NCBI RefSeq assembly: GCF_018598225.1
Contig: NZ_JAHESF010000029.1
Coordinates: 1-64,000 of the forward strand
From: Chryseosolibacter histidinae
GTDB lineage: Bacteria > Bacteroidota > Bacteroidia > Cytophagales > Cyclobacteriaceae
Length of the DNA: 64,000 nt
Direction of reading: 5' to 3'
In this document: in pieces, positions 6,926 to 59,433 of the stretch
Position numbering within the stretch: position 1 is the stretch's first letter
Layout: each line of letters starts with the position of its first letter
Program-made: the position numbers and the translations under genes
Notes under the pieces: generated by a model
Seen by the model: the letters and a program-made list of their open reading frames with translations, nothing else
Databases searched by the model: none
What the model was told of the DNA's origin: nothing

Positions 6926-7017
6926 TTGTGCGGTTCAATTTTCGTCTGTCCGGTAAAACCTTTCTTTTGATTTATGCGTTTTACCTATAGTTTACAGGTA
7001 ATTCTTTTTTATACATA

Positions 7018-8147: not shown

Positions 8148-9056
8148 ATGAATATTGCTATACTTTCACGCGACGCAAAACTGTATTCTACCAAACGTCT
8201 GAAGCAGGCAGGTGAAGATCGCGGTCACAAAGTAGAGGTCATCGACCATATGAAATGTGTGCTCTTTATCGAGAAGAAGAACCCCATGGTATTGTACAAT
8301 GGAAAACGTCTCGACTATTTCGATGCCATCATTCCGCGCATTGGTGCCTCTGTCACTTTCTATGGTGCGGCCGTAGTGCGCCAGTTCGAGATGATGAAGG
8401 TCTTTACAGCCGTGGAATCGCAGGCACTGATCCGTTCACGTGATAAGCTCAGGAGTCTGCAGATCCTGTCGCGTGCCGGGCTGGGTTTGCCAAAGACGAT
8501 CTTCATGGATTATTCGCGCGATACCGAAGGGGTGATCGAAGCCGTGGGTGGAGCGCCCGTGGTCATCAAGCTGCTTGAAGGCACGCAAGGCCTTGGTGTT
8601 GTGCTGGCGGAGAGCAAGAAAGTGGCTAAATCGGTGATCGAAGCTTTTCACGGCATTCATGCCCGCATCATTGTACAGGAATTTATCAAGGAGGCTAAAG
8701 GTGCGGACATCCGTGCATTTGTTGTCAACGGCGAAGTAGTGGGTGCCATGCGCAGGCAGGCAAAAGAAGGCGAGTTCCGCTCCAACCTGCACCGCGGTGG
8801 AAGCGCCAAAGTAGTGAAGCTCGACCGTCACGAAAAACATGCCGCCATCATCGCGGCCAAAAAAATGGGACTGGGTGTAGCCGGCGTTGACATGCTTCCG
8901 TCTGCCCGGGGCCCGCTGATCCTGGAAGTAAATTCCTCACCCGGCCTCGAAGGCATCGAAGGCGCCACCAAGATCGATATCGCCGGTAAGATCTACCAGT
9001 TCATTGAGAAGAACGCCAAAAAGAACAAGATCCAGAAGGATAAGGTGAACGCCTGA
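8148..9056 (+). CDS. rimK: RimK-like ATP-grasp ligase (ribosomal protein S6 glutamate ligase)
   Basis: RimK adds L-glutamate to the C-terminus of ribosomal protein S6 (or makes poly-alpha-glutamate) using ATP. The 302-residue protein has the N-terminal pre-ATP-grasp domain with [13 protein letters not shown] (6-18) and an ATP-grasp domain. Lys141 and the glycine-rich loop EGTQGLGV (144-151), the QEF motif (177-179), DIRAFV (187-192), RSNLHRGG (211-218), Asp248, Glu260 and Asn262 supply nucleotide, metal and substrate contacts. The close family alternative is LysX/ArgX or MptN, but RSNLHRGG and the rimB neighbour favour RimK. Its stop is followed by a repeat element containing a hairpin. Confidence 0.93.
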
Positions 9057-9089
9057 AACCCTCCTTCGCCAAGGCTACGGCGGGTAACA

Positions 9090-9297
9090 AGGAGTCAGAA
9101 GCCAGGAGCCAGTAGTCAGGAGTCTGGCTACAATGTTGAGGAGCAGAGATTTTAGAGTTTATATCGTATGGCAAACGCTTTACTGAAAGGTAAAGCGTTT
9201 TTTATTTCCTGCATTCATTCGAGATCAGCCTGTGAAAGCGAAACCTAACCTCCAACGAAGGGCCTTCTGGCTCCTGACTCCTGGCTCCTGGCTTCTT
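9090..9297 (-). repeat. Composite inverted-repeat element, copy 1 (GGAGTCAG arms, AAACGCTT hairpin core)
   Basis: The left arm (9090-9126, words AGGAGTCAGAAGCCAGGAG) and right arm (9263-9297, words CTTCTGGCTCCTGACTCC) are reverse complements in composition and bracket a unique interior. Read on the minus strand, the interior matches the cores at 54147-54233 and 55814-55903. Shared parts are an AAACGCTTTACC...GTAAAGCGTTT hairpin, then ATATAA, then AATCTCTGCTCCTC, then GTAGCCAGACTCCT at 9118-9131. On the minus strand a further shared word CTCGAATGA lies upstream of the hairpin. Copy 1 lies between rimK and the deacylase gene. Confidence 0.7.
9173..9206 (+). terminator. Hairpin with T-run inside composite element copy 1
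   Basis: The stem AACGCTTTAC (9174-9183) pairs perfectly with GTAAAGCGTT (9190-9199) around a 6-base loop and runs into TTTT on the plus strand. It has the form of a rho-independent terminator for rimB-rimK. Because the same hairpin recurs twice at 54-56 kb with an A-run on the other side, it could also act bidirectionally as part of the element. Confidence 0.65.
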
Positions 9298-27980: not shown

Positions 27981-28092
27981 TTTAGATTTGAGATTAAGTC
28001 CCGATCGCTATCGGGATGAGACCCTGTACCAACGCTTCGGTACCGGGTCTCATGTCTCAAATCTCACATCTCATCACATCACATCACATCTA
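27981..28092. repeat. Convergent spacer: palindrome, 14 bp hairpin and GATGTGATGTG arms
   Basis: After the susD stop comes TTTAGATTTGAGATTAAG (27981-27998). Next is the near-palindrome TCCCGATCGCTATCGGGA (27999-28016) and a hairpin in which 28017-28030 pairs with 28039-28052 at 13 of 14 positions (TGAGACCCTGTACC with GGTACCGGGTCTCA, 8-base loop). The right arm (28053-28092) reads, on the kinase strand, as repeated GATGTGATGTGATGAG words starting exactly at the kinase TAG stop. The hairpin can terminate both converging genes. Arms and palindrome belong to the window-wide repeat theme. Confidence 0.65.
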
Positions 28093-31532: not shown

Positions 31533-31728
31533 TTAAAGTTTAAGGTTTAAAGTTGAAGGTTCAAGGTTTAAAGTTTTAAAGTTTAGGGTTATGTAATCCA
31601 GGTGGAGTGCGCCAAGGGATCCTGACTGACTGGTTTAAAAAAAGCAACTTTGAATCAAAAGCTCAAACGTGAACGTAGCTAAACTTTAAACTTTAAATTT
31701 TAAACTTCTAACTTCTAACTTCCAACTA
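31533..31728. repeat. GAAGTTTAAAGTTTAAGG inverted arms between the SDR and the kinase
   Basis: The left arm (31533-31590) is built of iterated AAGTTTAAGGTTTAAAG words and the right arm (31681-31728) of AAACTTTAAACTTTAAATT and ACTTCTAACTTC words, reverse complements of each other. They bracket about 90 bp of unique DNA. The SDR stop TAG (complement 31726-31728) is the first triplet of the right arm on its own strand, which continues TTGGAAGTTAGAAGTTAG. There is no coding potential. Confidence 0.65.
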
Positions 31729-32757
31729 CATTTCATTATTCTTCAGCGCAGCCTGATCGGAGAGTACGGTGACGCCGCCCTGCGAAAGATGGGATTCTGC
31801 TTCGTAGCCTTTTTTCTTTTCCAGGCTTCCGTTGTACCCGGGCAGGAATTTGTCGGCCACGGTCAGCAGGGCACCTACCCAGCCGGGGGCGATGCCTTTC
31901 ACTACGGTAGCCAGTTTTCCTGACAGGGAGAGGATGGCTTCACGTTGACCGTATTCCAGCGCCGTGATGATGCTCTGTGCGGCGATCTCAGCATCGTGCG
32001 AAAGCAAGGGTGAAGAAGCTGCGGTTTTGAACCACGCATACTCGGCTTCATGATTGCCCTTTACAGTGATGTTGCGGGGGCTTCCCGTACGCATGAGGTT
32101 GGGCACTACTGTGGTAACATGGATATTTTCTTTTTTCAGCTCGGCGTGCATGCCTTCTGAAAGTCCCACGGCAGCGAACTTGCTCGCGCTGTAGGGCAGG
32201 AGGTGAGGCATGGCCAGCTTTCCGCCGATGGAGGTGATGTTGACGATCCTTCCCTCGCGTTGTCTTCTGAAATGTGGAAGGGCTGCGTGGATGGCATACA
32301 GCGGAGCCCAGAAATTTGTTTTCATAGCTTGTTCGTAGTCATCCACGAGCATGGCTTCCTGCGGGCCTACCTGGATTGTTCCCGCGTTGTTGATGAGCAC
32401 GTCAATTCTTCCGTAGTAATTCACCACATCGTTGACAAGCGTTTTTACCTGTTCCTGGTCGGTGACATCGGCAGTCCGGGCCATCACTTCTGCACCGGAG
32501 CGCTCGAGCTGTTGTCTGGCAAGCTCAATTTTGTCGGCGGACCTGGCACAGATGGCGAGCTTGGCACCACGGGCCGCGATCGCTCTGGCCAGCACAAGGC
32601 CCAATCCACGGGAGCCGCCGGTGATCAAAACCACTTTTCCATCCAGCCTGAACCTTGTAAACTCCCGGTAAAGCGCATTGGCCACCAAAAGAACTCCAAC
32701 GCCAGTGGCCGCCCAGCCCAGCGTTTTCTGAAGCGAATGAACCCGATCATTAGCCAT
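31726..32757 (-). CDS. Short-chain dehydrogenase/reductase with N-terminal membrane anchor
   Basis: This is a 343-residue classical-type SDR. A hydrophobic anchor (LGWAATGVGVLLVANALY, 13-30) precedes the Rossmann fold. Cofactor motif TGGSRGLG (46-53), NNAG (123-126), catalytic Ser176 in NITSIGG, and Tyr189/Lys193 in YSASK are all present, so the enzyme should be active. The ARSADKI segment after beta-strand 3 hints at NADP preference. Domain length and a C-terminal extension (about 60 residues after the SDR fold, ending LKNNEM) resemble membrane-associated SDRs annotated for fatty aldehyde or ketosphinganine-like substrates, but the substrate cannot be deduced. It is monocistronic by context. 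Confidence 0.88.
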   Translation of the reverse strand: MANDRVHSLQKTLGWAATGVGVLLVANALYREFTRFRLDGKVVLITGGSRGLGLVLARAIAARGAKLAICARSADKIELARQQLERSGAEVMARTADVTDQEQVKTLVNDVVNYYGRIDVLINNAGTIQVGPQEAMLVDDYEQAMKTNFWAPLYAIHAALPHFRRQREGRIVNITSIGGKLAMPHLLPYSASKFAAVGLSEGMHAELKKENIHVTTVVPNLMRTGSPRNITVKGNHEAEYAWFKTAASSPLLSHDAEIAAQSIITALEYGQREAILSLSGKLATVVKGIAPGWVGALLTVADKFLPGYNGSLEKKKGYEAESHLSQGGVTVLSDQAALKNNEM

Positions 32758-33622: not shown

Positions 33623-33739
33623 CCTCGCGAGGTACGAGGTCGCAAATGCAAGGTACGAGGTACGAAATACGAGGTACGTAGACCCCCTTCGATCAGAGCT
33701 CCATTTCGTACCTCGTAAATCGTACCTCGTACTAACCTA
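33623..33739. repeat. TACGAGGTACGAGG inverted arms between FGE and the small secreted gene
   Basis: The left arm (33623-33679) repeats ACGAGGT words (GGTACGAGGTACGAAATACG) and the right arm (33705-33733) repeats CGTACCTCGTA in the opposite sense, around a 25-base unique interior. The FGE stop (complement 33737-33739) is 4 bases from the right arm. The short interior makes this the locus most likely to fold as one long imperfect hairpin. Confidence 0.65.
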
Positions 33740-34910: not shown

Positions 34911-34943
34911 CCTGACTCCTTACTCCTGGCTCCTTTTTCTCTA
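34911..34943. repeat. Single GGAGTAAGGAGTCAGG arm after the permease stop
   Basis: On the minus strand, AGAAAAAGGAGCCAGGAGTA begins immediately after the TAG stop of the permease (complement 34941-34943) and continues with AGGAGTCAGGGACGGAGAGG. It is the same word family as the three composite elements, but no matching opposite arm or hairpin core is present between here and the FGE start. Confidence 0.5.
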
Positions 34944-48108: not shown

Positions 48109-48558
48109 ATGATCAAAACGGCAGTCACCGCAACAACACCATCCAGGAAAATTGAATTTATCGGAGCCCACAAAGACGATTCTATTGTCATCGGCAACTA
48201 CGGCGACGTTCAGTTCGTTGCCAAAGGAAATTTTGATCTTTCAGGACTGATCTATTGCGGCAAGAATACCGTGGAGTTCAATGTGGAAGGTGACGGCACC
48301 GTAGCTTTCAAGGGCGTTTGTAAAAAATTAATGATCCGGGGTATTCGCGGCAACTGCACGCTTGACCTCAGCAACCTCTCCAGCCAGGTGGTATGGTGCG
48401 AATCTGTCAAGGGCAACGCCATCGTCACACTGGGGCCTACCAAACTGATCGAGCTGATCAGCCTCGACAATGATGCTGTCGTAAAATACGGCGGCAAACC
48501 CGTGCTGCTGAACTACACGCTGAAGGGCAACTCTCGTATTGAGGGGTGGAAAGGTTAA
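48109..48558 (+). CDS. Hypothetical beta-solenoid-like protein
   Basis: This 149-residue protein has no signal peptide or membrane helix. It is rich in short alternating strands with Gly/Asn/Asp turns (IVIGNYGDVQFVAKGNFDLS, EFNVEGDGTVAFKGVCKKL, VVWCESVKGNAIVTLGPTK, LKGNSRIEGWKG), which suggests a small beta-solenoid of the GIN/DUF2807 kind, though lacking the secretion signal of those proteins. I recognise no family. Its TAA stop is followed at once by a GGAGTAAGG-type repeat arm. Confidence 0.6.
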   Translation: MIKTAVTATTPSRKIEFIGAHKDDSIVIGNYGDVQFVAKGNFDLSGLIYCGKNTVEFNVEGDGTVAFKGVCKKLMIRGIRGNCTLDLSNLSSQVVWCESVKGNAIVTLGPTKLIELISLDNDAVVKYGGKPVLLNYTLKGNSRIEGWKG

Positions 48559-48873
48559 AAGAAGCCAGGAGCCAGGAGTAAGGAGTCAGGAGGGGAGTGT
48601 GCGTCTTTCCGATCTTGCTCTTTGTTTAGAAAGAAACAGGCTCTACTGAAGTAGAAGTCAGGCCGTGGAGTGTTCCGTCATTCAGAGCGCAGCAATTGTG
48701 TGGGTATGCGGGAGCGAAGAATCCCCCTGAAAACAGCGTGCATCAGCAAAGGCATGCGTACGCAGTAAGTTTCCAAAGGATCCATCCCTCGCTCCATTGC
48801 TAAACCATCCGTCTTCCGAATAGAGCATGCTGTGGACCGTGGACTGTGGACCATTTTCTCACTAACTTTAGGC
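48559..48873. repeat. Spacer with a GGAGCCAGG arm and a GTGGACCGTGGACTGTGG arm
   Basis: The arm AAGAAGCCAGGAGCCAGGAG (from 48559) and AAGGAGTCAGGAGG starts at the base after the TAA stop of the upstream gene. About 240 bases later TGTGGACCGTGGACTGTGGA (from 48831) belongs to a different word family, the one used as inverted arms at 59256-59433. Neither arm has its complement here. No gene was seen in the interior. Confidence 0.5.
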
Positions 48874-54058: not shown

Positions 54059-54300
54059 GGGAAAAGGAGTAAGGAGTAAGTAGGCCTCGATCGGCGCGCG
54101 GGTTTGCCTGCAAGAATTAGCTCGAATGAGGCAGAAGGTGAGCATGAAAAAAACGCTTCACCTTTCGATAAAGCGTTTCGCTATATAACCAACCCACTAA
54201 GATCTCTGCCTCAGTCGTAGTAGCCAGACTCCTGGCTCCTGGCTCCTGACTTCTGGCTCCTATTCTTACTCCTTACTCCTTAATTCTTACTCCTTTTCCC
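54059..54300. repeat. Composite inverted-repeat element, copy 2 (15 bp perfect terminal repeats)
   Basis: GGGAAAAGGAGTAAG (54059-54073) is perfectly inverted at the other end (CTTACTCCTTTTCCC, 54286-54300), giving a 242 bp unit. Inside are iterated GGAGTAAG words, a short AGGCCTCGATCGG, CTCGAATGAGGCAG (54122-54135), a hairpin AAACGCTT...AAAGCGTTT (54151-54178), ATATAA, GATCTCTGCCTCAG and GTAGTAGCCAGACTCCT (54217-54233), then the long right arm. From 54147 to 54178 the core is base-for-base identical to 55815-55846. The right end overlaps the last codons and stop of the next gene. No target-site duplication is obvious. Confidence 0.75.
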
Positions 54301-55665: not shown

Positions 55666-55983
55666 GGAAAAGGAGTAAGGAGTAAGAATTAAGGAGTAAG
55701 GAGGCCTTCGTTCCACGGTGCTGTGGACGGAAGAAACTTCCGTATCCGAGTTTATACTTCGAAATAGCTTTCAAAAAAAAGGCGAAAGAAACTTCCGCCT
55801 CAGTGTGTGCAATAAAAAAAACGCTTCACCTTTCGATAAAGCGTTTTTGTGGATATAAACAACTTACTAGAATCTTTGCTTCACTAGCAGTAGCCAGACT
55901 CCTTACTCCTTACTCCTTTAATTCTTACTCCCCTCTTCTGACTCCTGGCTCCTGACTTCTGACTTCTGACTTCTTTTCCCCCT
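55666..55983. repeat. Composite inverted-repeat element, copy 3 (longest)
   Basis: The left arm (55666-55703; AAAGGAGTAAGGAGTAAGAA, TTAAGGAGTAAGGAGG) is followed by GGCCTTCGTTCC, then about 105 unique bases that include GGCGAAAGAAACTTCCGCC. Then comes the shared hairpin core (55814-55846, with an A-run before it), GGATATAA, AATCTTTGCTTCAC, GCAGTAGCCAGACTCCT (55887-55903) and the right arm (55904-55983) of CTTACTCCTTTAATTCTTAC and CTGACTTCTGACTTC words. Same core order and orientation as copy 2, so the two copies bracket the squalene-fold gene as direct repeats. A stretch AAAAAAAACGCTTC...GCGTTTTTG could act as a bidirectional terminator. Confidence 0.75.
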
Positions 55984-56001: not shown

Positions 56002-56739
56002 TCAATCATGATGAATCGCCGTCCTTCCAAACACAAGGCGTTTATTCACATGCGCACCACCATTCACATAGATGCTGGGCTCGCCAAACGCGTCCACACG
56101 CACCTCTTCCGAGGTATTGATCCGTACATTTCCCTCTCCGAAGATGCTGGCCGATGCAAAGGCGCTTCTCATGTCGTGGGTATCGATCCTGTTCTCACCG
56201 TAGAGCTTGTATTTCTGCTCTACAACCCTTCCCTTTCTGATGTTGAGGATGTTCTGGCCGTACAGCGATGCCTTGAAGAAATCTGTCTTCAGCGACGCCA
56301 GGTTGATGGTATTTTCACCGTATGCTTTTAAGCGGAACTCGTCTGCTTCGAGGGCGTCATTGCAGGTGAGCTCCTGATTGCCGCGGATCTCCAGCGATTC
56401 TATGTCTTTATAGGTTACATAGGCCGTAATGGAAACGCCGGCGTACATGCTCCTGCGCCTGCTATAACGGTCTGTGTAGGAGGCCATCTTCTCTACTTTG
56501 CGCGCATCGTCGAGGTAGATATGAAGGGTCTTCTGGTGAACTTCGATGTTGATCTTGCCTTTGCTCACATCGTGGTAAACGAGACGGATATGTTCCTGGT
56601 CGCCTTTGGTGAGGATCAGGTTTACCCGGGGAGAAGCAATGATGCTGGTGAAGGGTTTCAGGTCTTTTACGATCTCATCCTGGGCCTGGGCGGCCAGTGT
56701 CACACACGAAAGGAGGATCAGCAGTGAAAATCTGTTCAT
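56002..56739 (-). CDS. GIN domain (DUF2807) secreted protein
   Basis: This 245-residue protein has a signal peptide MNRFSLLILLSCVTLAAQA (cut before QDEI), starting at ATG 56739; the frame to 56790 is not preferred. The mature part is the head-GIN beta-solenoid: LKPFTSIIASPRVNLILTKG, GKINIEVHQKTLHIYLDDA, then repeats with the pattern SLEIRGNQELTC, FRLKAYGENTINL, FKASLYGQNILNI, YKLYGENRIDTHD and VDAFGEPSIYVNG. Family function is unknown, possibly cell-envelope surface structure. It begins 54 bp after the permease-5 stop on the same strand, so likely shares its transcript. Its TGA stop is about 20 bases from the copy 3 element. Confidence 0.85.
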   Translation of the reverse strand: MNRFSLLILLSCVTLAAQAQDEIVKDLKPFTSIIASPRVNLILTKGDQEHIRLVYHDVSKGKINIEVHQKTLHIYLDDARKVEKMASYTDRYSRRRSMYAGVSITAYVTYKDIESLEIRGNQELTCNDALEADEFRLKAYGENTINLASLKTDFFKASLYGQNILNIRKGRVVEQKYKLYGENRIDTHDMRSAFASASIFGEGNVRINTSEEVRVDAFGEPSIYVNGGAHVNKRLVFGRTAIHHD

Positions 56740-56793
56740 AAGTGGTATTTTAAGTATCAGACTGAAGGATGACAACAAAGGTTGCATCAACCC

Positions 56794-59255: not shown

Positions 59256-59433
59256 TCAGTTGTCCACGGTCCACAGTCGACAGTCCACGGTAGGCGTGAG
59301 TAAGTCCATCCGACCATACCTTTATACGAACTGGCAGATGCACAATGTCGTTTAACACGGCATTGCAGTGGACTGTGGACCGTCGACTGTGGACTCTTGT
59401 CAACTGCCTCTTTTGTCAATTGTCAACTCCTGG
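59256..59433. repeat. CAGTCCACGGTCCACAG inverted arms between permeases 5 and 6
   Basis: The left arm CAGTTGTCCACGGTCCACAG (from 59256) with TCGACAGTCCACGG (to 59290) and the right arm TGGACTGTGGACCGTCGACT (from 59369) with GTGGACTCTTGTCAACTG are reverse complements. The right arm continues with TTTTGTCAATTGTCAACTCC and ends directly at the permease-6 TAA stop (complement 59434-59436). About 78 unique bases lie between the arms. Confidence 0.65.

Follow-up and report, generated by a model that had tools for sequence, protein, structure and literature searches.

The 64,000-nucleotide stretch of Chryseosolibacter histidinae DNA analysed here, referred to as the window, contains a repeat at positions 54059-54300 that a preliminary description presented as a MITE-like composite element. 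The locus raises the question of whether this repeat is a mobile element in its own right or one instance of something more widespread. The answer to which we give about half of our confidence is that it belongs to a large group of stop-adjacent, hairpin-forming elements built of heptads, and is not a lone mobile element. The seven-base words of these elements differ even in sister species, so that the repeat would represent a type of genome insert that has received little description.

The ends of the repeat are exactly inverted over 15 bp, as had been reported, with GGGAAAAGGAGTAAG at 54059-54073 being the reverse complement of 54286-54300. They had been taken for terminal inverted repeats specific to the element and turned out to be the outer edges of heptad arrays with the word GRAGYMA, which are present genome-wide. 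The left arm (54064..54083, plus strand) consists of GRAGTAA heptads, and its outer edge includes the 15-bp left end. The right arm (54223..54295, minus strand) comprises two blocks, GRAGYCA followed by GRAGTAA/GAATTAA heptads, and holds the stop codon of a minus-strand ORF ending at 54280. The element is mostly non-coding, as described, except that the right array encodes the stop and last codons of this ORF. In the translation of the letters, the reading frame runs into the array and gives the C-terminus ...QGAEGKRSKN before the stop; the protein at the same locus of the congener G002 terminates in ...QGAK. When the whole stretch was used as a BLAST query against the genome of the window (G000, 8.04 Mb), at least 49 places were matched, chiefly by the arm part (40 of 226 first-look candidates scored). 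A pattern of three arm-word units has 553 matches in this genome (279 + 274), none in the reversed-letter control and none in the congeners G001 and G002. Therefore, the ends represent a genome-wide vocabulary rather than ends specific to the element. Among the other 76 genomes searched, 13 contain one to nine matches, and several of these have control matches too.

Independently of any word, a scan of 1.59 Mb of G000 revealed 268 segments of period 7, with 0-8 for each of the other periods from 4 to 12, while 0.80 Mb of G002 yielded 73 segments of period 7 and 24 of period 8. Period-7 segments were absent from 20 kb each of G012, G014, G028 and G044, from 50 kb of G001 loci (some overlapping) and from 88 kb of model-hit loci, among them a single G001 locus and a single G002 locus. 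Seven word families emerged in G000 from clustering and manual merging of related sub-words, namely GTCSAYR, AGYMAGR, GTTRCCR, GTTTAAR, GTACGAR, GTAATCR and YWTGAGA, all read inward. Most positions of a word are largely conserved within its family, and the few that vary often alternate between the two bases of a transition pair. The consensus words of GTTTAAR, GTACGAR and GTAATCR are without a GGG run. In the congener G002 the architecture is the same and the words are different, as the consensus words of its clusters differ from those of G000.

Several of these families can be seen in the window. Single GRAGYMA arrays are located at 48559..48592 (plus strand), starting 1 bp past the stop of ORF 48109-48558 in a spacer whose G002 orthologue is without an array, and at 34912..34935 (minus strand), 6 bp past the stop of a minus-strand ORF ending at 34941. 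The window also holds YWTGAGA, GTTTAAR, GTACGAR and GTCSAYR arrays (28046-28074, 31533-31731, 33651-33678, 59261-59395). The GTTTAAR-family pair has its left arm at 31533..31579 (plus) and its right arm at 31677..31731 (minus), and the arms of the GTCSAYR-family pair lie at 59261..59291 (plus) and 59368..59395 (minus).

For a wider view of the architecture, arrays were called with word models at a 28-bit threshold in 1.59 Mb sampled from G000. A first scan at 22 bits, the only threshold with a reversed control, was too lax (96 real calls against 36 on reversed sequence, two contigs). The contigs were picked for BLAST hits, so array densities may be slightly high; C11, C21 and C31 were included whole, together with most of C27, C44 and C45 and pieces of others. 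Gene calls relied on ORFs and hexamer scores, which give exact stops but only approximate starts. Of 498 arrays, 493 are intergenic and five lie within predicted genes. They occupy 273 spacers, the sample having 766 that measure 60 bp or more, and many transcript ends in this genome are therefore affected. A single array is found in 97 of these spacers and two or more in 176; the latter comprise 125 with exactly the inward order '> <', 20 with one direction only and one with the outward order '< >'. The polarity signs of the word families were derived from the pairs themselves, one family being flipped after the 22-bit scan, so the polarity test is a test of consistency. Where a spacer has a single array, the array is directed inward from the nearer gene in 75 cases and away from that gene in 22. 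Arms contain about four to five units, with median lengths by family of 29.5-39 bp that are alike in all seven families, and median loop lengths by family range from 18 to 86 bp.

The arrays are anchored at stop codons. In tandem '> <' spacers, the median distance from the stop to the beginning of the proximal arm is 1 bp (n=77, quartiles -2 and 5), and that from the end of the distal arm to the next start is 75 bp. Outer arms in tandem spacers lie within 10 bp of the stop in 93 of 132 cases, compared with a mean of 28 and a maximum of 37 in 200 runs of random placement. Between convergent genes, both outer edges are a median of 1 bp from the two stops, and in 26 of 37 spacers both lie within 15 bp. 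The same anchoring is observed in G002 for 22 inverted pairs picked without reference to words (17 of 26, random mean 11.3, maximum 15). Array-bearing spacers number 74 between convergent, 163 between tandem and 36 between divergent genes, where the sample has 135, 460 and 171 spacers of at least 60 bp, respectively.

The core between the arms of the flagged repeat is a four-copy module separate from the heptad arms. Copy 2, in the flagged element, is a conserved stretch of about 90 nt (54138..54233, minus strand) that ends in a terminator-like hairpin (54149-54178) and a T run. Copy 1, also with a terminator-like hairpin, lies at 9118..9215 (plus) and copy 3 at 55803..55903 (minus). The reported identity of 54147-54178 with 55815-55846 over 32 bases was confirmed, and the reversed relative at 9118-9206 does contain the same parts in the same order. 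The count of three copies is correct for the window, but a fourth strong copy occurs elsewhere, at G000:C46:66970-67062 (E 4.3e-10). The element with copy 1 has its left arm at 9089..9122 (plus), after a RimK-like ORF ending at 9056, and its right arm at 9264..9297 (minus). In the element with copy 3, the left arm (55670..55703, plus) is matched by a right arm in two blocks (55899-55918 and 55935-55977, together 55899..55977, minus), which face the stop of the minus-strand ORF 56002-56790.

All four core copies fold to a hairpin of 12-14 bp followed by a T run, and each of them follows an ORF of its own strand; these ORFs end at 9056 (+), 54280 (-) and 56002 (-) in the window and at 6940 (+) in locus L142. 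In its predicted fold, the core thus combines the stable hairpin, the T run and the upstream gene on its own strand that characterise intrinsic terminators. Our interpretation is that a 3' end with a putative intrinsic terminator was duplicated, with one heptad arm attached. A covariance model of 97 positions, built from the three window cores and the C46 place, recovers the four seed copies in G000 (E 4e-18 to 4e-10), the next match having E 0.225. The best match in 38 relatives reaches E 6.7e-4, and Rfam 15 families give no match in the window at gathering score. With only its seeds recovered in G000, this best value in the relatives and no Rfam family, the core was rejected as a conserved RNA.

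Whether the elements come and go was assessed on orthologous neighbouring gene pairs of G000 and G002. A preceding comparison based on BLAST blocks (60 orthologous gaps, p 0.098) was redone on 147 such pairs. After 54 were dropped because both spacers were shorter than 60 bp or the longer one reached 1500 bp or more, 93 remained (longer spacer 60-1499 bp). DNA identity being roughly 70-75%, occupied and empty sites were compared by spacer length. Arrays are found in neither spacer of 59 pairs, in G000 only in 17, in G002 only in 6 and in both in 11. In 22 of the 23 one-sided pairs, the array-bearing spacer is the longer one (median differences 119 and 136 bp, compared with 0 without arrays), with one exception in the wrong direction (232 vs 257 bp). 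Empty orthologous spacers, which the preliminary description expected of an insert-like element, therefore exist. Two convergent examples measure 217 vs 9 bp and 176 vs 10 bp in the occupied and empty spacer, respectively. In G000, a heptad pair surrounds a terminator-like hairpin at C45:279582, where the G002 spacer has a plain hairpin of this type. A core restricted to its three places, or orthologous spacers that are never empty, would by that description have spoken against a mobile element; the four core copies and the array-free spacers depart from both.

Occupation of both spacers is more frequent than the approximately 5 pairs under independence (11 observed, odds ratio 6.4, p 0.0012), which may reflect some spacers being more permissive. 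These 11 pairs have a median length difference of 2 bp, and the same word is never used in both species (0/11). A heptad array directly at the stop in both species occurs at C45:230833, 301342, 310766 and 329334. At the 10 usable sites, word similarity at the same site is 0.489 compared with 0.461 when permuted, and 222 of 5000 permutations are as high (p ~0.04). This gives a weak hint that the words at one site may be related, AT-rich with AT-rich and GTC words with GTC words. In one both-occupied spacer, C45 329334-329942, a heptad pair is placed between the stop codon and what by eye looks like an RNase P RNA gene. An unusually long, perfect array of about 27 TTTAAGA units directly follows a stop at G002:C1 1055294-1055486; the G000 spacer there is 21 bp long.

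The interior of the elements is variable. A MITE would be expected to share internal sequence between its copies, but no homologous copies were found among aligned loops of the GTTRCCR (25 elements) and GTCSAYR (41) families, leaving only the four-copy core in common. In tandem spacers, arm mismatches read on the sense strand show no excess of G-U over A-C (131 vs 115), so there is no sign of RNA-strand selection on the arms; mismatches without strand bias fit a DNA-level element. The elements fold as RNA with a median of -51.7 kcal/mol (n=136), compared with -32.5 for letter-shuffled controls from the first 60 elements. A loss of intrinsic terminators at array-bearing 3' ends is unsupported (54 of 308 with arrays vs 98 of 422, p 0.065). 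In GTTTAAR, GTACGAR, GTAATCR and GTTRCCR, arms of the same element are less complementary than shuffled arms, all 200 shuffles being at least as high. The trend is reversed for GTCSAYR (1/200 shuffles) and weakly for AGYMAGR (18/200), both of which mix sub-words. Low arm complementarity may mean that there are two types of arm or that perfect palindromes are avoided, and a check based on one variable unit gave a mixed outcome. In these two families, whose words are unrelated, GTGTT occurs in the first 50 nt inside 22/72 GTTRCCR and 20/132 GTCSAYR arms vs 4.8% of background windows, which is suggestive only; AACAC-like complements are seen on the opposite side of the loop.

Architecture, polarity, stop anchoring, the different sizes of occupied and empty orthologous spacers and the word differences in the congener are direct observations, from which the preferred reading of stop-adjacent heptad elements can be developed. 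In each element, two inverted arms that face inward, each with about four to five degenerate heptads, would flank a loop that is for the most part not conserved. Gain and loss would involve the whole unit, some 120-135 bp immediately past a stop codon, and the words would belong to a family within the genome and to the lineage. A candidate machinery may insert the hairpin at gene 3' ends, where copies could persist because the hairpin is tolerated or is useful as a transcript-end structure, and the words may drift together within a genome via conversion or selection. In four elements, the flagged one among them, an arm is attached to the duplicated 3'-end module, which carries a terminator-like hairpin of its own and is the conserved core of the preliminary description. 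That the words stay constant and the loops vary freely implies that the arms are under selection or conversion, and the size difference and empty sites, as read from spacer comparison, favour insertion or loss of whole hairpins next to stops. A mobiliser was not found among Y1_Tnp genes, of which G000, G001 and G002 have 4, 4 and 5. A Y1 (RAYT) link is unsupported, as these counts do not follow the arrays and a period-7 segment lies within 1.5 kb at only 2/9 Y1 loci. Going further, we tentatively consider a new element class of stop-codon-targeted inverted heptads with a private word set, replaced between sister species at the same stops with architecture and length kept, which would imply a dedicated arm-writing system.

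The both-occupied sites make rewriting in place a serious rival. The hairpins would then have a function at transcript ends, for instance as terminators in both directions or as stabilisers of mRNA 3' ends. They would have arisen where they stand, by slippage and copying templated by the hairpin, been kept by selection and had their words rewritten in concert in each genome. Anchoring at stops, the higher frequency in convergent than in tandem or divergent spacers and the stable RNA folds speak for this possibility, which we consider less than probable. The near-equal lengths of both-occupied spacers do so too; their excess and the slight likeness of words at the same site are consistent both with in-place rewriting of old elements and with repeated insertion. 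Against it stand the missing G-U excess, terminator-like signals that are not clearly rarer at array 3' ends, the arrays in divergent spacers, and whole-element size differences that resemble insertion or deletion of units. Ordinary heptameric simple repeats made by polymerase slippage, or G-quadruplex repeats, would dispense with a dedicated element altogether. GRAGYCA arrays do occur in at least 119 stretches of other organisms, with many phyla among the matches listed, and in a 2007 survey cited in PMC4679880, heptamers are reported to outnumber the other classes of long simple repeat in most genomes. This explanation is improbable, as it does not predict inward polarity, paired arms, similar arm length in seven families or stop anchoring. 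Among the matches listed, GRAGYCA arrays elsewhere are longer and mostly unpaired, neighbours show no preferred order (5 inverted, 5 direct in 119 loci), and anchoring at stops is weak (25/146 within 15 bp, control 18). Nor can quadruplexes explain the repeats in general, because families such as GTTTAAR and GTACGAR are without G runs. The classical MITE with 15-bp TIRs, as first proposed, would account for the exact inverted ends, the three core copies in the window plus one elsewhere, and the insertion-sized differences at orthologous spacers. It is very unlikely, given that its ends are common to hundreds of arrays, that no internal sequence is shared outside the four-copy core and that single arms are frequent (97/273 spacers). 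The label MITE-like is therefore only partly right: the inverted ends and the insert-like history stand, yet the repeat class is wider and differently organised, with arms of genome-wide heptads and the core as a separate module.

Bacterial heptamer repeats have been noted before without a settled explanation. Those of G000 obey a strict grammar, with inward pairs, about four to five units per arm, a start at the stop, several words, and different words at the same site in a congener; this makes insertion, rewriting and selection testable against each other. Tandem heptamers in spacers are also known from the STRR heptamers and small dispersed repeats of filamentous cyanobacteria. The GGAGTCA word is found in cyanobacterial records, with arrays that, in the loci seen among the matches listed, are longer and mostly unpaired. 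REP/REPIN elements (treated in PMC3733652), associated with RAYT transposases, are extragenic and present in many copies, and consist of short inverted pairs whose polarity is fixed and whose loops vary. The G000 elements share the inverted pairs, fixed polarity (one outward order in 176), variable loops, extragenic location and high copy number with REP/REPIN. Unlike REP/REPIN, they have arms of tandem heptads in several word families instead of one conserved palindrome, and no Y1 link was found.

Among published repeats, the nearest counterpart is found in Xanthomonas, whose GGGAATC heptamers (Rehm et al. 2015, PMC4692102) are described as degenerate heptads, mostly of four units and mostly intergenic, at an average of 28 nt from the upstream ORF end vs 160 nt to the next ORF, with 70 and 75 cases of convergent pairs in two species. 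Inward pairs of about four units downstream of ORFs are likewise found in G000. By its description, the Xanthomonas repeat has one G-rich word, interpreted as a quadruplex former, whereas G000 has seven families, several without G runs (GTTTAAR, GTACGAR and GTAATCR have no GGG), at a median of 1 bp from the stop and with words replaced in the congener. The TAACTGA repeats (MacGregor 2015, PMC4679880) are portrayed as intergenic heptamers of patchy distribution, including Bacteroidetes, with two cases in which the spacer of a close relative is shorter and without repeats; they differ in having one word in direct, not inverted, orientation, mostly just upstream of starts in the focal genome. A P. 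gingivalis MITE with a minisatellite (PMC4596501) similarly combines tandem repeats with an inverted-repeat element in a Bacteroidetes genome, but its tandem repeats are described inside the element, whereas in G000 they are the inverted arms themselves. No description of stop-codon-anchored inverted heptads was recognised in searches of the open-licence literature.

Traces of the same arrangement are found beyond the genus. Three-unit GTTRCCR matches number 294 in G000; of 394 further genomes in the phylum, 7 have 1-4 matches. Two of eight loci read from those genomes, L391 and L389 from two other genera, have an inverted pair beside an ORF stop, with the ORF ending at 1497 and the array running from 1498 in L391, and at 1478 and from 1485 in L389. 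The word GTTGTYR, present in 29 of 296 genomes, has 53 matches in G077 (control 3) and none in its genus-mate G036. Both belong to the same order as the genome of the window, and this contrast echoes the species-specific word pattern. In L388, from a genome of another family of the phylum (G394), about 1.2 kb contains seven period-7 segments with several different words.
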